Positions 29,598-35,054 of a stretch of DNA of 35,659 bases are shown piece by piece (within the stretch, counting starts at the first letter, position 1; each line of letters starts with the position of its first letter). Both the position numbers and the translations under genes were made by a program. The notes beneath the pieces are model-generated. The model was given only the letters and a program-made list of their open reading frames with translations. It was not told the origin of the DNA and did not search any database. The DNA is from an uncultured Alphaproteobacteria bacterium (GTDB taxonomy: Bacteria; Pseudomonadota; Alphaproteobacteria; HIMB59; GCA-002718135): NCBI GenBank assembly GCA_902630465.1, contig CACOVJ010000009.1, positions 1 through 35,659 on the forward strand. Reading direction: 5' to 3'.

Positions 29598-29599
29598 GT

Positions 29600-29641
29600 T
29601 GTATACAAATTGTTTGTATACATATTATTTACATATGTCAA
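29600..29641 (-). promoter_or_regulatory. marR-lysS promoter with overlapping inverted-repeat operator
   Basis: On the minus strand the -35 is a perfect TTGACA (29641-29636). Fifteen bases later comes TATACA (29620-29615). A perfect 10-base inverted repeat, TGTATACAAA at 29600-29609 and its complement TTTGTATACA at 29613-29622, flanks a 3-base centre. Each arm contains the self-complementary octamer TGTATACA, so two tandem palindromes lie 15 bases apart. A third short palindrome, ACATATGT (29631-29638), overlaps the -35. The operator covers the -10 region and runs to within two bases of the marR ATG, the position expected for an autoregulatory MarR operator. Confidence 0.78.
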
Positions 29642-29694
29642 CTTAAAATATCTAAAATATTGAGAAACTAATTAAATTTATTGTCTCTTTTAAG

Positions 29695-30708
29695 CTACTT
29701 TACGCCTAATTTTTGTTGAAGTTCTTTAGAAGAAGTTGTGTATTGAAATTTATTCTTCTTATCTGGAAAACAGTATTTAAAGCATTCTTGTGCCATTAGT
29801 GCAGCCTCATGAAAACCAGATAGTATTAATTTCAATTTACCTGGGTACCAATTTATATCACCTATTGCAAAGATAGATGGAACTGAAGTCTCAAATTTCT
29901 CTGTGTCAACCTTGATTAAATTTTCATGAAGATTGAGCCCCCAATCTGAAATAGGGCCTAGCTCCATTTTAAGACCAAAAAAAGGAATTAAGTAATCAAC
30001 TTCCAATTCGTGAATATTTTCATCAGTTTTGTATGATACGATAATTTTATTCTTCGAACTGTTTTTTATATCTTTTACAACACCCTTAAGAAAATTAACC
30101 TTACCTTCACTTTCTAGCTCCTGCATTTTAGTAACAGAGTCTGGTGCAGCTCTGAATTCTTTTCTTCTATGCATTAATGTAACATGTGATTTTTTTGATA
30201 ACTCATTTGTCCAATCCAAAGCTGAGTCGCCTCCTCCGGCAATGAGCAATTTTTTATTTTCAAACATCGATTTATTTCTTATGGCGTAAAATACGTTTAT
30301 ATTTTCAAATTTATCAATGTTTTCTATTGGCGGCTTCCTAGGAACAAAACTACCTGCGCCAGCTGCAATTACTATACATTTAGCTTCGATTTTTTTTCCT
30401 AGATTAGTTTCAACACTCCATCCATGATCAGATTTAGTTATTTTATCAACTTGCTGATTAAGATGAAAATTGGGTTTAAATGGATTTATTTGTTTCAATA
30501 ATTCATCCGTAAGCTCTTGACCGGTTACAATTGGCCTAGAAGGTATATCGTAAATAGGTTTTTCTGGGTAAAGCTCCGCGCATTGGCCGCCTACCTTGTC
30601 AAGATTATCAATAAGATGACATTTAATATTAAGTAAACCTAATTCAAAAACGGCAAACAAGCCCACAGGCCCTGCCCCAACTATAACTACATCGGTCTTT
30701 TCTGTCAT
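29695..30708 (-). CDS. Ferredoxin/flavodoxin-NADP+ reductase, thioredoxin-reductase-like type
   Basis: A 337-residue FAD- and NADPH-binding oxidoreductase of the type II ferredoxin-NADP reductase class (YumC-like). The FAD loop is VGAGPVGLFAVFELG near 9-23, the NADPH loop is AGGGDSALDW near 157-166, and the FAD-closing FAIGDI motif is near 285. The region GGQCAELYPEKPIYDIP is characteristic of this class, and the active-site CxxC of thioredoxin reductase is absent, which separates the two families. It should reduce ferredoxin or flavodoxin, or run in reverse; iron-sulfur biogenesis and IspG are plausible users. It is divergent from ctaA across 54 bases. Confidence 0.93.
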   Translation of the reverse strand: MTEKTDVVIVGAGPVGLFAVFELGLLNIKCHLIDNLDKVGGQCAELYPEKPIYDIPSRPIVTGQELTDELLKQINPFKPNFHLNQQVDKITKSDHGWSVETNLGKKIEAKCIVIAAGAGSFVPRKPPIENIDKFENINVFYAIRNKSMFENKKLLIAGGGDSALDWTNELSKKSHVTLMHRRKEFRAAPDSVTKMQELESEGKVNFLKGVVKDIKNSSKNKIIVSYKTDENIHELEVDYLIPFFGLKMELGPISDWGLNLHENLIKVDTEKFETSVPSIFAIGDINWYPGKLKLILSGFHEAALMAQECFKYCFPDKKNKFQYTTSSKELQQKLGVK

Positions 30709-30762
30709 AATATGAGAAATAACAACTTTTTTTTATTTTTCTAGAGATTATATATATTTTAA
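30709..30762. promoter_or_regulatory. Divergent FNR/ctaA promoter region
   Basis: The 54 bases between the FNR and ctaA starts must contain at least part of both promoters. A TATATA-rich stretch at about 30749-30756 lies near the usual -10 position for a short-leader ctaA transcript. The left part contains a T-run (about 30727-30739) with no recognisable -35 of consensus quality. I see no inverted repeat, so no operator is called. Confidence 0.28.
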
Positions 30763-31818
30763 ATGAATTACTACAAAGTTTCAGGGGATTACCACCGTAC
30801 AATTTATATATGGTTACTAGTAATGACTTCAATGGTTTTGGGCATTATTGTCATTGGTGGTTTGACAAGACTAACTGACTCAGGTCTTTCTATGACAGAT
30901 TGGAGACCTTTACTAGGTATCATCCCTCCATTAAACAATAGTAGCTGGCAAAAAGTATTTGAAATGTACCAACTTACCCCAGAATTTAAAATTGTTAATA
31001 GAAATATGAGTCTTGAAGAATTTAAATATATTTTTTGGTGGGAATGGTTTCACAGAGTTTTTGCAAGAATGATAGGTATTGTATTTATTTTACCACTTAT
31101 TTATTTCATTATTAAAAAACAATTAAACTATTACCTTTGTCAAAGATTAGCAGTGGTATTTATATTTGGACTATTTCAGGCCTTTGTTGGTTGGTGGATG
31201 GTTAAGAGTGGACTAAGTGAAAACCCTTATGTTAGTCCATATAGATTAACTTTCCATCTTCTTAACGCTTTGATAATCTTTTCAATGTTATTATGGATTG
31301 CGATGGACTATAAATATGAAATTAAAATTAACTTTTTTTCGAAACCATTTACTGCTGACTTTTACATATTTGTATCAATCTTATTAATTTTTATCACTAT
31401 AGCTTCAGGTGGGTTCATGGCTGGCACCAACTCTGGGCAATCATTTAATACATTTCCTCTTATGAATGGTAAAATTATTCCAGATGATTATCATATGGAA
31501 GATTATGGGATATATAACATTTTTGAAAATACAGTCGCTATTAACTTCAATCACAGATGGATATCAATCTTTGCATTTTTTTATATTATATTTATTTGTT
31601 TTAAATTTATAAAATTTAATGACGAATATATATCTAGTACTTTAGTTTATTTAATAATATTCTTTCTTACACTTCAGGTGATACTTGGCATTATTACTCT
31701 TCTTAGTAATGTTTATTTACCTTTAGCAAGCATGCATCAAACTAATTCTATCTTATTGTTATCAACATTATTAATTAGTTATCATCAATATAAATACAGA
31801 AAGGTAAAACATGAGTGA
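30763..31818 (+). CDS. ctaA: Heme A synthase, COX15 type
   Basis: CtaA oxidises the C8 methyl of heme O to the formyl of heme A for cytochrome c oxidase, in the inner membrane. The 351-residue protein has eight hydrophobic helices. The conserved histidines are at residues 97 (WWEWFHRVFARMIG), 165 (LTFHLLNAL), 264 (INFNHRWISI) and 325 (ASMHQTNS), the heme-ligand set of the family. The early GGLTRLTDSGLSMTDWRP stretch and the FMAGTNSG loop are diagnostic of alphaproteobacterial and mitochondrial COX15 proteins. The end overlaps the SDR gene by 8 bases, so ctaA heads a four-gene unit. No other cytochrome oxidase gene is in the window. Confidence 0.96.
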   Translation: MNYYKVSGDYHRTIYIWLLVMTSMVLGIIVIGGLTRLTDSGLSMTDWRPLLGIIPPLNNSSWQKVFEMYQLTPEFKIVNRNMSLEEFKYIFWWEWFHRVFARMIGIVFILPLIYFIIKKQLNYYLCQRLAVVFIFGLFQAFVGWWMVKSGLSENPYVSPYRLTFHLLNALIIFSMLLWIAMDYKYEIKINFFSKPFTADFYIFVSILLIFITIASGGFMAGTNSGQSFNTFPLMNGKIIPDDYHMEDYGIYNIFENTVAINFNHRWISIFAFFYIIFICFKFIKFNDEYISSTLVYLIIFFLTLQVILGIITLLSNVYLPLASMHQTNSILLLSTLLISYHQYKYRKVKHE

Positions 31819-32536
31819 AAAAAAAATATTAGTTTTTGGAGGAACAGGTTCAATAGGTAGATCCTTAGCAATTAAACTTAAAGAAGATAATTATTCACCA
31901 ATTATTTTGTCAAGAAATGAAAATGAACTGAAAAATCTTTCTGAAGAAACTAATTGTGAATATAGAGTCTGTGATGTATTAAATACTGATAAAATTATAG
32001 AAATTTCTAAAGAATTCAAAGACAATATATTTGGTATTGCATACTGTGTAGGTTCTATAAATCTGAAGCCACTTAAACTTACTAAAGACGAAGATTTTTT
32101 AGAATCTTTTAAAGTTAATACTCTTGGAGCAATAAATGTAATCAAGCAAAATCAAGAAAGTTTAGCTAAAAACAATGGAAGTATTCTACTTTATTCAACA
32201 ATTGCAGTAAAACAAGGTTTTACAAATCATACCATTATATCAACAGCAAAGGGTGCGATTGAAGGATTAACTCTTAGCCTTGCAGCAGAATTTGCTCCTA
32301 AAATCCGTGTAAACTGTATTGCGCCTAGTTTGACAGACGCAAAAATGACACAAAAAATTATTAGTAATGAAGCAATTAGGAAGGCAATTGAAAATATGCA
32401 TCCATTACCAAAAATTGGGTCTGGTGAAGATTTTTCTGATATAGGAGCATTTCTTTTAAGTAAAAAAAATAGTTGGATAACTGGACAAATTTTCCATATA
32501 GATGGAGGTAGATCAACGTTAAGAATAAAATCGTGA
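31811..32536 (+). CDS. SDR-family protein lacking the catalytic tyrosine
   Basis: A 241-residue Rossmann-fold protein of the short-chain dehydrogenase/reductase family. The cofactor loop is VFGGTGSIG (8-16). Ser/Thr129-130 and Lys147 are in place, but the catalytic YxxxK reads ISTAK, with Ile at residue 143. The surrounding sequence KGAIEGLTLSLAAE, then RVNCIAPSLTDA, and the ending SWITGQIFHIDGG, is otherwise FabG-like. From memory, similar proteins with HASxxxAKGAVEGLT form a distinct SDR group that also lacks the tyrosine, so this is probably a family trait, not decay. A weak AAGG precedes the ATG. It overlaps ctaA by 8 bases and the DUF6134 gene by four. Confidence 0.88.
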   Translation: MSEKKILVFGGTGSIGRSLAIKLKEDNYSPIILSRNENELKNLSEETNCEYRVCDVLNTDKIIEISKEFKDNIFGIAYCVGSINLKPLKLTKDEDFLESFKVNTLGAINVIKQNQESLAKNNGSILLYSTIAVKQGFTNHTIISTAKGAIEGLTLSLAAEFAPKIRVNCIAPSLTDAKMTQKIISNEAIRKAIENMHPLPKIGSGEDFSDIGAFLLSKKNSWITGQIFHIDGGRSTLRIKS

Positions 32537-33213
32537 AATATTTATTTACTTTAATCCTAGCCCTAATTTCGTTTAGTGTTTATTCACAACCTTTTCCCAT
32601 TCCAGATGATAAAGAAGTAAGCTATGATGTTATTAGAAAAAAGAAAACGATCGGAAGCCTAGTTTCTAAATTCATACAGGAAGATGAGAAATTAATCTTA
32701 CATTCAGTTTTAAATATTGATGTAAAAGTTCTTTTCTTTCCAGCATATCAATTTTTTCAAGAAAGCAAAGAAACGTGGATTAATGGAGAATTTGTTTCAA
32801 TTGATGGATTTACAGACTTTGAAGACGATAGGGAATATAAAATTATAGGAAAAGATACAGAAAAGTTTTTTATTGTAAGTGGTATGGATGGTGAATTGAA
32901 ATTAGATAAAGATATTTTGCCATTAAATTATTGGAATATGTCAATTTTAGATAAAGAGGAAGTATTTGATACACAGAAAGGAATTGTTAGAAAAATAAAA
33001 GTTAGAAAATTAAAAAGTGAAAAAATTAAAATCAATGAAAAGACTGTCAGCGCTGAAAAATTTTTGTTTAATGCTTCAAAGAATCCTAAGGATAAGGGGC
33101 CATTTCCAGAGTACACATTATGGTATCATGAAAGAGAGCTTTTAAAAATGGAATTTAAAAACCCAAAAGATAAAAAAACTATAAAGATAATAAGAAATGA
33201 TTGGGGAAAGTAA
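32533..33213 (+). CDS. Exported DUF6134-like protein
   Basis: A 226-residue protein with a signal peptide (hydrophobic core LFTLILALISFSV, cleavage probably after VYS or VYSQ). The mature part is beta-rich and matches my recollection of DUF6134: an opening VSYDVIRKKKTIGSLVSKF, the middle ESKETWINGEFVSIDGFTDF, a PLNYWN segment, and YTLWYHERELLKMEF near the end. The function is unknown; the shape recalls lipid-binding beta-barrel or clam folds, but that is speculation. The start is GTG at 32533, forming GTGA with the SDR stop, so it is coupled. The next SDR gene begins immediately after its TAA. Periplasmic location is expected. Confidence 0.78.
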   Translation: MKYLFTLILALISFSVYSQPFPIPDDKEVSYDVIRKKKTIGSLVSKFIQEDEKLILHSVLNIDVKVLFFPAYQFFQESKETWINGEFVSIDGFTDFEDDREYKIIGKDTEKFFIVSGMDGELKLDKDILPLNYWNMSILDKEEVFDTQKGIVRKIKVRKLKSEKIKINEKTVSAEKFLFNASKNPKDKGPFPEYTLWYHERELLKMEFKNPKDKKTIKIIRNDWGK

Positions 33214-33972
33214 TTGAAGACAATTTGGATTACCGGTGGTTCTTCAGGTATAGGTTTTGCAACAGCTAAAGAGTTTTTGTTAAATGGATGGCAGGTAGTA
33301 ATATCTTCTAGTAATAAAGAGAAATTGGAGAATGCAAAAAAGAGATTGATTGATAAAAAAAATTCTGGTTCGTTACATATTGTTCCATGTGACATATCAA
33401 AAATTAAAAATGTTAATGAAACAATCGATTATATTGAGACTAATCTAGGTAAGATTAATATAGCACTTTTAAATGCCTCAGCTTACAGTCCTAATAAAGA
33501 TCAGATATTTGATATTAATAATTATGAATTATTGGTAGATGTTAATATTAAAGGTACTTTATTTTGTGTTAATAAACTTAAAGATTATATGAGTGGTAGG
33601 AACAATACAATTGCTATTATCTCTTCACCATTAGGTTATAGAGGCTGGCCTACTGCCGGAGCCTATGGAATATCTAAAGCAGCTCAGTTAAGTTTGAGCG
33701 AGAGTTTATACTTTGATTTCAAAAAACTTAACATTAATGTACGAGTTATTTGTCCTGGATTTATTGATACAGAAGCTACAAGAAAAAATAGTTTTAAAAT
33801 GCCATTTTTAAAAAGTGCTGAATATGCTGGAAAAAAAATATTTGAAAGGCTTACAAAAGGTAAGGAATTTGAAATAATATTTCCATTTGTGATTGTTTAT
33901 TTTTTTAAGTTTACTAGAATTTTACCTTACAAAATCTATTTTTATATCTGGAAAAAACTTGGTAATTTTTAA
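33214..33972 (+). CDS. Classical SDR-family oxidoreductase
   Basis: A 252-residue short-chain dehydrogenase with all catalytic elements: TGGSSGIG cofactor loop (7-14), the NAS loop (87-89), Ser137/138 and YGISK with Tyr151 and Lys155. The C-terminal extension is distinctive: CPGFIDTEATRKNSFKMPFL, then a hydrophobic tail ending FPFVIVYFFKFTRILPYKIYF that may associate with the membrane. I recall this extension from SDRs found in photolyase or lipid-related clusters of marine proteobacteria, which hints at a lipid or lipophilic substrate. The start is TTG at 33214, directly after the DUF6134 stop. Its own stop is interleaved with that of the phosphofructokinase gene (TTAA, 33969-33972). Confidence 0.88.
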   Translation: MKTIWITGGSSGIGFATAKEFLLNGWQVVISSSNKEKLENAKKRLIDKKNSGSLHIVPCDISKIKNVNETIDYIETNLGKINIALLNASAYSPNKDQIFDINNYELLVDVNIKGTLFCVNKLKDYMSGRNNTIAIISSPLGYRGWPTAGAYGISKAAQLSLSESLYFDFKKLNINVRVICPGFIDTEATRKNSFKMPFLKSAEYAGKKIFERLTKGKEFEIIFPFVIVYFFKFTRILPYKIYFYIWKKLGNF

Positions 33973-35054
33973 GCTAATTCACCAATATATATTCCTAACC
34001 CTTTTGCTACCTTAATCAAAGGATCGTTTTTCTGAATAGTTTTAGAGTAACCAGCAATTTGATTAAGTGGGAGATCTTGAACTCCTCTATCCTTCCAAAC
34101 AACAACTCTATTAAATTTCTTTTTTGCAATTAAATCTGTTGCGTAAACCCCAAATGCACTAGCAATTAATCTATCTCGATGTGTAGGTTGCGCACCTCTT
34201 TGAACATGTCCTAGTACAGTTACTCTAGTTTCTGAATTTGTTATTTTATATATTTCATCGCCTAAATAGTTACCAATTCCTCCTAATCTAACTTCACCAT
34301 CAACATACTTAACAGTAGCTTTTTTGCCATTTTCTTTTTTTACAGCCTCGGCAACAACAATTAAACAATGGTTTCTTCCTTTAGATCTTAAATTTTCTAT
34401 ATGCATTGCTATTGATTTTATTGAATAAGGTATTTCTGGTATCAAAATAATATCTGCCCCTCCAGCAATACCAGAATTTAGGGCTATATGCCCTGCATCT
34501 CGACCCATTACCTCTAAAATCATTGCCCTTCTATGACTTGCCGCGGTTGGCTGAAGCATGTCAAGTGCGTTAGTGGCTACATCAACTGCTGTATCATATC
34601 CAATAGAGAGCTCGTTGTGTTTTACATCATTGTCAATTGTCTTTGGAATACCTACAAAATTAATATTTCCTTTTTTTGTAAGACTTCTTAAAATTTTTAA
34701 ACTTCCATCTCCTCCAATACCAATCAATGCATCTATACCTAGTTTTTTGAAACCGTTAATAATAATATCAGTGGAATCTGTTTTTTTTCCATTTTTATTT
34801 ATAATTTTAAAAGGATTTCCTTTGTTGTTAGATCCCAAAAAAGTACCGCCCATTCTCATTAAATTACCTTCGAAATTATTAGGTTCTAGTTTTACAACAT
34901 CCAATGGATCTTTTAATAGACCAAGAGTTCCATCCCTTATCCCATAAACCTCCCAGTTATATTTATTATGAGAGCGTAGAGTAACAGCTCTGATTACTGC
35001 GTTAAGGCCAGCACAATCTCCACCACTTGTTAAAATAGCTATTTTTTTAATCAC
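33969..35054 (-). CDS. 6-phosphofructokinase (ATP- or PPi-dependent unresolved)
   Basis: This enzyme phosphorylates fructose 6-phosphate to the 1,6-bisphosphate. The 361-residue protein has LTSGGDCAGLNAVIRA at the start, GIGGDGS (112-118), PKTIDND (137-143) with the catalytic aspartate, MGRDAGHIAL, and VTVLGHVQRG near the sugar-phosphate site. At the two classic donor-specificity positions it has Gly in GGDGS (ATP-like) and Lys in PKTIDND (PPi-like), the mixed pattern of group III PFKs, so the phosphate donor cannot be assigned by eye. The start is GTG at 35054. Its presence implies an Embden-Meyerhof route or a PPi-linked gluconeogenic step, unlike classic Pelagibacter. Confidence 0.94.
   Translation of the reverse strand: MIKKIAILTSGGDCAGLNAVIRAVTLRSHNKYNWEVYGIRDGTLGLLKDPLDVVKLEPNNFEGNLMRMGGTFLGSNNKGNPFKIINKNGKKTDSTDIIINGFKKLGIDALIGIGGDGSLKILRSLTKKGNINFVGIPKTIDNDVKHNELSIGYDTAVDVATNALDMLQPTAASHRRAMILEVMGRDAGHIALNSGIAGGADIILIPEIPYSIKSIAMHIENLRSKGRNHCLIVVAEAVKKENGKKATVKYVDGEVRLGGIGNYLGDEIYKITNSETRVTVLGHVQRGAQPTHRDRLIASAFGVYATDLIAKKKFNRVVVWKDRGVQDLPLNQIAGYSKTIQKNDPLIKVAKGLGIYIGELA

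Follow-up and report, generated by a model that had tools for sequence, protein, structure and literature searches.

Why should two genes for short-chain dehydrogenase/reductase (SDR) proteins and one for a DUF6134 protein follow ctaA, the heme A synthase gene, in a single run of overlapping or abutting frames? This arrangement was found in a 35,659-nucleotide stretch of DNA (contig CACOVJ010000009.1 of assembly GCA_902630465.1, hereafter the window) from an uncultured alphaproteobacterium of the GTDB lineage HIMB59; GCA-002718135. We propose, at a rough probability of 0.6, that the trio SDR1-DUF6134-SDR2 represents an arm of the sigmaE-ChrR (ECF11, singlet oxygen) photolyase and furan fatty acid cluster that has been displaced and is now joined by overlap to ctaA. 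This proposal follows from the cluster genes and sigmaE motif that surround DUF6134 in other bacteria, from the gene order in a sister family (f2), and from the presence of the rest of the cluster at other loci of the window's genus.

To survey the neighbourhoods of DUF6134, 385 genomes were drawn from the class, and DUF6134 was present in 153 of them. Stretches of ~11 kb (less at contig ends) were taken around 94 DUF6134 places in 94 genomes from 64 other families, mostly the best-scoring matches, with one to a few per family and a spread over families that was not random. Neighbouring genes were clustered and representatives scanned with Pfam, so that the cluster labels derive from these same 94 loci. 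A layout recurred in which DUF6134, an SDR2-type SDR and a SnoaL-like gene face genes for DUF3833, MFS_2, CFA synthase, DUF1365 and an FAD oxidase. SDR2-like was the most frequent label (58 loci), followed by CFA (42), DUF1365 (39), MFS (38), SnoaL (37), FAD (35) and DUF3833 (34), with smaller numbers for ChrR (12), the photolyase-related DPRP (11), other photolyases (8), SDR1 (5) and ctaA (3). DPRP probably belongs to the iron-sulfur photolyase/cryptochrome group. Of ten cluster genes, one or more were present in 70/94 loci and four or more in 45/94. Over all 385 genomes, DUF6134 and DUF1365 occurred together in 123, DUF6134 only in 30, DUF1365 only in 62 and neither in 170, which corresponds to an odds ratio of 11, uncorrected for relatedness.

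The orientation of the partner SDR was also consistent. SDR genes encoding the FxIxFP motif lay downstream of DUF6134, on the same strand and within 3.5 kb, at 38 of the 94 loci (28 families) and were directly adjacent at 27 (20 families), while none of the 94 had such a gene upstream on the same strand. The original prediction depended on conserved co-occurrence of SDR and DUF6134 genes, which the survey found; its association of the C-terminal extension of SDR2 with photolyase and lipid clusters likewise agrees with these neighbourhoods and with the conserved FxIxFP extension. A scan of named genomes returned 15 loci, three of them from the window's genus. Among the other 12, SDR1-DUF6134-photolyase was present in four (L171, L172, L173 and L181, from Niveispirillum, AAP38 and Azospirillum sp. 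RU38E) and DUF6134-photolyase in one (L180), and three more (L177, L179, L182) had DUF6134 with FAD, DUF1365 and CFA genes.

The promoter motif points the same way. The sigmaE (ECF11) consensus TGATCC-N16-CGTA, which is given in PMC5507510 and agrees with sites in PMC4336711, occurred in exact form upstream of DUF6134 at 21/94 loci, compared to 18 of 1004 other open reading frames (ORFs) in the same stretches. For the loose form TGATC-N15-20-YGTA the counts were 24/94 (19 families) and 24/1004, and 22 of the 24 loose sites upstream of DUF6134 had exactly the published spacing. When the spacer of the exact form was varied, N15 gave two sites upstream of DUF6134 and N13, N14, N17, N18 and N19 none. 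Shuffled DUF6134 upstream regions produced the loose form at a mean of 0.5 and a maximum of 3 of 94 loci in 100 rounds. This shuffle is a rough control (a plain letter shuffle was used where the dinucleotide-preserving walk fails), and the comparisons with other ORFs and other spacers weigh more. All but one of the 18 exact sites at other ORFs preceded cluster genes (DUF3833, 6; RpoE, 3; ChrR, 3; phr, 2; FAD, 2; SDR1, 1). A limited literature search found neither a published statement of a sigmaE-type motif upstream of DUF6134 nor papers on DUF6134 by family name.

Both the gene kinds around DUF6134 and the motif at its clusters resemble the sigmaE-ChrR regulon of Rhodobacter sphaeroides (ufaM/ufaD/ufaO, phrA), which shares CFA/UfaM-like, FAD/UfaD-like, DUF1365/UfaO-like, SDR, MFS, DUF3833, photolyase and ChrR genes (PMC7380195, PMC7074977) as well as the promoter (PMC5507510). 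Furan fatty acid synthesis is assigned to UfaM, UfaD and UfaO, the DUF1365 protein (PMC7380195), and RSP_1087 is an SDR of the RpoE regulon in the photo-oxidative stress response of Rhodobacter (PMC7074977). The window differs in that SDR1-DUF6134-SDR2 stands alone, without the motif and joined to ctaA, and DUF6134 is not named for the regulon in the text consulted. A second likeness is provided by the RpoE2 operon of Shewanella oneidensis, where SO_4169 (photolyase-related) and SO_4170 (SDR) lie under TGATCC...CGTA and resemble the DPRP-SDR2 pair of f2; the accessible part of that paper mentions no SDR1, DUF6134 or ctaA there (PMC4336711). Numerous sigmaE targets have no known function according to a review (PMC6852236). 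Membership of the trio in the sigmaE-ChrR/furan fatty acid cluster is the best supported component of the proposal, and we consider it very probable.

In the window's own genome (G000), genes for a photolyase, an FAD oxidase, DUF1365, CFA synthase and DUF2878 stand in a row on a separate contig (C16), away from the ctaA operon. The same row was observed in five other genus genomes fetched, the Pfam assignments having been made on the window's genome only. DUF1365 was present in 12/13 genus genomes and DPRP in 10/13, away from ctaA. The ChrR cupin was likewise found in 10/13 and in all three f2 genomes, with a sigma factor gene adjoining ChrR in all eight loci fetched. A conserved element, TTTTCATC...TTAGTATATC, precedes rpoE-chrR in the genus (L237, L242-L244, L247), with a single occurrence in each of six of the eight genus genomes searched, and is possibly a diverged autoregulatory promoter. 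The pattern TTTCATC-N-TTAGTATA occurred once each in six of eight genus genomes, always upstream of rpoE-chrR and nowhere else in them (its reversed control matched once, in G019), and therefore yielded no further targets; a looser form of it was absent from the window.

The sister family connects the cluster to ctaA. All four f2 loci (L187-L190) have the order ctaA-SDR1-DPRP-SDR2, and the ctaA link is therefore common to the two families of this order that were seen. Most simply, the ancestral arrangement would have been ctaA-SDR1-DUF6134-DPRP-SDR2, from which the window's family lost the photolyase gene and f2 lost DUF6134; DUF6134 was detected in none of the 16 genomes searched of the order's other family. 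In the one-contig f2 genome G025 (L189, 6745-8228), DPRP is in two pieces with stops between them, and it occupies a single frame in G026 and G027.

This shared linkage could be taken to mean that the trio directly serves heme A or cytochrome oxidase biogenesis, as it would if it prepared the membrane or dealt with a lipid-like precursor of heme A for CtaA. An operon that overlaps with ctaA across the genus, ctaA ahead of SDR1 in the sister family and ctaA near DUF6134 in L073, L075 and L113 would all fit such a role. However, ctaA was not found in the fetched stretches of the other 91 of the 94 loci, where photolyase and lipid genes are often present, and in four f99 genomes that contain ctaA as well as DUF6134, the ~20 kb surrounding ctaA gave no cluster label in each case. 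We consider a direct role in heme A synthesis quite improbable, and the idea that ctaA linkage follows a general functional rule was dismissed because the link is too rare (3/94 other DUF6134 loci).

Within the window, the coordinates confirm the predicted junctions and Pfam supports each family (Table 1): ctaA and SDR1 overlap by 8 bases, SDR1 and DUF6134 overlap by GTGA (4 bp, with the GTG start codon of DUF6134 at 32533), and DUF6134, ending at 33213, abuts the TTG start of SDR2 at 33214. Junctions were counted in 17 other genus loci (L002-L018; L019 and L020 were left uncounted as their contigs end before ctaA), with a spacing of -8 for ctaA to SDR1 in 15/17, -4 for SDR1 to DUF6134 in 16/17, and 0 for DUF6134 to SDR2 in 14/17 plus -1 in one. 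Among the exceptions, SDR1 of L009 is a decayed remnant, and L017 has a gap of +1 between ctaA and SDR1 and a contig end that cuts SDR2. Recurrence of the junctions across genus loci argues that the architecture is not due to chance. DUF6134 was found in 20/25 genus genomes; completeness is 56-86% for the five without a match, and in one of these (G022) a truncated SDR2 lies beside the 6-phosphofructokinase gene at a contig end. The latter gene adjoins SDR2 in 19/20 genus loci, and the remaining locus ends at a contig end.

Table 1 Features of the ctaA operon and its flanks in the window
Feature	Position	Strand	Basis
ctaA, heme A synthase (COX15/CtaA)	30763..31818	+	PF02628, E 6e-101
SDR1, short-chain dehydrogenase fold, catalytic Tyr absent	31811..32536	+	PF13561, E 4e-41, and alignments
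DUF6134 protein, probably exported, predicted beta-spiral fold	32533..33213	+	PF19630, E 7e-32; structure model
Hydrophobic, signal-peptide-like N-terminal segment of DUF6134, ~residues 1-21	32533..32595	+	sequence reading; low pLDDT at residues 9-16
SDR2, classical SDR, Ser/Tyr/Lys kept	33214..33972	+	PF00106, E 8e-39; alignment
C-terminal extension of SDR2: conserved F-x-I-x-F-P motif, hydrophobic tail	33811..33969	+	alignment
6-phosphofructokinase gene, convergent, closes the operon	33969..35054	-	tail overlaps the end of SDR2 by 4 bp (33969-33972)
Ferredoxin-NADP/thioredoxin reductase-like (FNR-like) flavoprotein, divergent from ctaA	29695..30708	-	PF07992, E 4e-27
54-bp intergenic region, FNR-like gene to ctaA	30709..30762	.	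sequence comparison with relatives

For a promoter of the four-gene operon, the 54-bp gap between the FNR-like gene and ctaA offers the only obvious room; its sequence is similar in L191, L149 and L146 and less so in L147 and L148. A generic scan of 30600-34100 gave 28 sigma-70-like sites, compared to 21.5 (standard deviation 4.9) in shuffles, and no terminator-like sites, compared to 1.1, and was uninformative. Control of the operon by sigmaE was sought with exact and looser forms of the motif in the window and in genus loci and was rejected, as nothing was found at the operon. The exact consensus is absent from the entire window, although this consensus may not be the genus's own and a diverged site is possible; the loose form is likewise absent from the operon, its two matches in the window (16618, + strand; 24112, - strand) being far away. 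As read from these sequences, the trio is probably transcribed together with ctaA from the ctaA promoter, and not on sigmaE demand. The original prediction had described a compact module on the ctaA promoter. Joint transcription of such a module with ctaA fits the conserved overlaps and the lack of a sigmaE site in the 54-bp gap, but a self-contained module is unsupported because furan fatty acid and photolyase-related genes sit at other loci of the genus.

A more ordinary explanation for this layout is hitchhiking, in which old stress-cluster genes survive behind ctaA through small-genome packing and now have a housekeeping or leftover role. The missing sigmaE site and the rarity of ctaA linkage outside the order (3/94) are in keeping with it, and one genus member (G011) has a decayed SDR1, so at least one member of the trio is dispensable. 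Nevertheless, DUF6134-SDR2 is intact in that same genome, the junctions have been retained in nearly all genus loci examined, in assemblies of ~1.0-1.6 Mb, and 12/13 genus genomes still have the DUF1365 gene of the furan locus. We consider hitchhiking unlikely. With the displaced-arm proposal, the window would illustrate how a small-genome marine lineage can split the cluster yet retain its arms.

The predicted structure of DUF6134 suggests what such an arm might do. A model for which the window protein was combined with 15 proteins from related loci was almost entirely beta (mean pLDDT 88, pTM 0.83), and its best bacterial structural match was EipB of Brucella abortus (DUF1849, PDB 6NTR; Foldseek E 1.3e-5; VIA Z 13.5, root-mean-square deviation 4.1 over 197 residues, 8-12% identity), with the beta-spiral fold shared across nearly the whole model. 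The top VIA row, the axonemal chain 9fqr_Xh (Z 14.2), was taken as fold similarity only. Next in VIA Z were a DUF1089 protein (10.0), LmcA (9.2), VioE (8.6), Omp33 (8.5) and RseB (8.1), followed by LolA (7.9), EPDR1 (6.5) and LprG (6.0); values below 8 may reflect a common arrangement alone. The broad similarity to the LolA/RseB/LprG/EPDR1 half-barrels thus spans 6.0-8.1, a range that the tool calls common, and the likeness to LolA-class carriers is one of predicted fold. EipB is described as a periplasmic envelope-integrity protein of LolA/LolB-like shape (PMC10787603). It differs from DUF6134 in belonging to another Pfam family and in that eipB lies by bamA/lpx genes (PMC10787603). PF19630 was the only Pfam match of DUF6134 at E <= 0.01, with no match to DUF1849, and the best E for a solved relative found by sequence was only 0.27. 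DUF6134 may therefore work like EipB without being a DUF1849 member. The prediction of an exported beta-rich protein fits a signal-like N-terminus, from which DUF6134 is probably exported, and a modeled beta-spiral that is like EipB and, more weakly, like LolA-class carriers.

The two SDR proteins are of different kinds. SDR2 keeps the glycine-rich motif, the Ser and the YxxxK of classical SDRs in an alignment of 13 sequences. In SDR1, the position of the catalytic Tyr is occupied by Ile in 13 and by Val in one of 14 aligned members, which was also seen against 5FF9; the window protein has Ile143 there, keeps Asn103, Ser129 and Lys147, and has an invariant His140 three residues before. SDR1 forms a sharply separate family among the fetched loci, with E-values stepping from 3e-52 to 9e-12, and is present in 31/385 class genomes at E <= 1e-45. 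In 20 further SDR1 stretches, a photolyase-related gene was close by in 12 and SDR2 directly beside SDR1 in two. The best NCBIfam matches of SDR1, to models of the YmfI and FabG types, scored far under the model cut-offs. Such matches would be expected if both SDR proteins were FabG-like enzymes that serve ordinary fatty acid synthesis and DUF6134 were an unrelated envelope protein. The lost catalytic Tyr and the separate family of SDR1, together with the conserved extension of SDR2 and its association with DUF6134, make this explanation very improbable.

If the trio is a displaced arm of the singlet-oxygen cluster, exported DUF6134 would bind or carry a lipid, or a hydrophobic product of damage, at the inner membrane or in the periplasm. 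SDR2, with its hydrophobic tail, would be membrane-associated and act as an NAD(P)H oxidoreductase on a carbonyl or hydroxyl compound that arises from oxidized or methylated acyl chains of the membrane. SDR1 would be a non-classical SDR linked to the photolyase side of the response, where it would serve either as a reductase with a different acid or as a binding partner. In this small-genome lineage, the arm would be made constitutively alongside a respiratory heme enzyme. We give the lipid-handling steps somewhat less than even odds. More tentative still is the wider suggestion that DUF6134 and its partner SDR constitute an unrecognized periplasmic lipid-handling arm of the singlet-oxygen response, that SDR1 represents a Tyr-less SDR family tied to photolyase-related proteins, and that the HIMB59-like order has rewired the arm, once induced by stress, for constitutive expression together with heme A synthase. 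The sigmaE-ChrR response and its furan fatty acids have been studied in a few bacteria. DUF6134, a probably exported protein of carrier-like fold whose gene follows a sigmaE-type promoter in many families of Alphaproteobacteria, offers a concrete candidate for the handling of modified or damaged lipids at the envelope.

Several results weigh against this reading as a whole or against its lipid component. None of the ten cluster genes was found at 24/94 DUF6134 loci, four Nitrospirillum loci among the 12 named ones carry DUF6134 with no cluster label, and DUF1365 is absent from 30 of the 153 DUF6134 genomes; DUF6134 therefore has other settings as well. Labels for these counts were defined on the very loci that were counted, which were not randomly chosen. 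An exact sigmaE site is absent upstream of DUF6134 at 73/94 loci, and six of the 20 further SDR1 stretches have no cluster gene. The window's own assembly, which is 77% complete, gave no DPRP or ChrR match. In R. sphaeroides, deletion of RSP1087, RSP1088 or RSP1089 left furan fatty acids unchanged (PMC7380195). Lipid binding by DUF6134 is reasoned from a model, and as the list of similar folds includes the Omp33 barrel (8.5) and the DUF1089 protein (10.0), a carrier role is not given by the fold alone.

Additional observations concern the surroundings of DUF6134 and SDR2. In L064, L077 and L087, DUF6134 occurs with further recurrent families (c66, c41, c20) and an SDR, and L120, L133 and L138 represent yet another setting. 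A PhoX-type alkaline phosphatase gene lies divergently just upstream of DUF6134 in L052, L056, L078, L084, L113, L114 and L115, which belong to several families. SDR2 falls into two classes within the genus that are ~60-64% identical to each other, one in L004 and L013-L016 and the other in the window, L146, L149 and L170. The flanking genes of L004 and L013-L016 are ~71-95% identical to those of the window, and this sequence pattern suggests in-place gene replacement.

On the other side of ctaA, the divergent FNR-like neighbour is also present in L146-L149 and L191. In L146, L147, L149 and L191, a small gene lies between the MarR-like and FNR-like genes, and in L191 (5113-5472) it encodes a 2Fe-2S ferredoxin (PF00111). 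At this locus, the window lacks the small gene (29598-29694). A ferredoxin together with its reductase would fit the known electron supply of Cox15. Upstream of the MarR-like gene, the window has a perfect 10-bp inverted repeat, TGTATACAAA...TTTGTATACA (29600-29622), with similar sequence in L191 and L146, which is likely a MarR operator.

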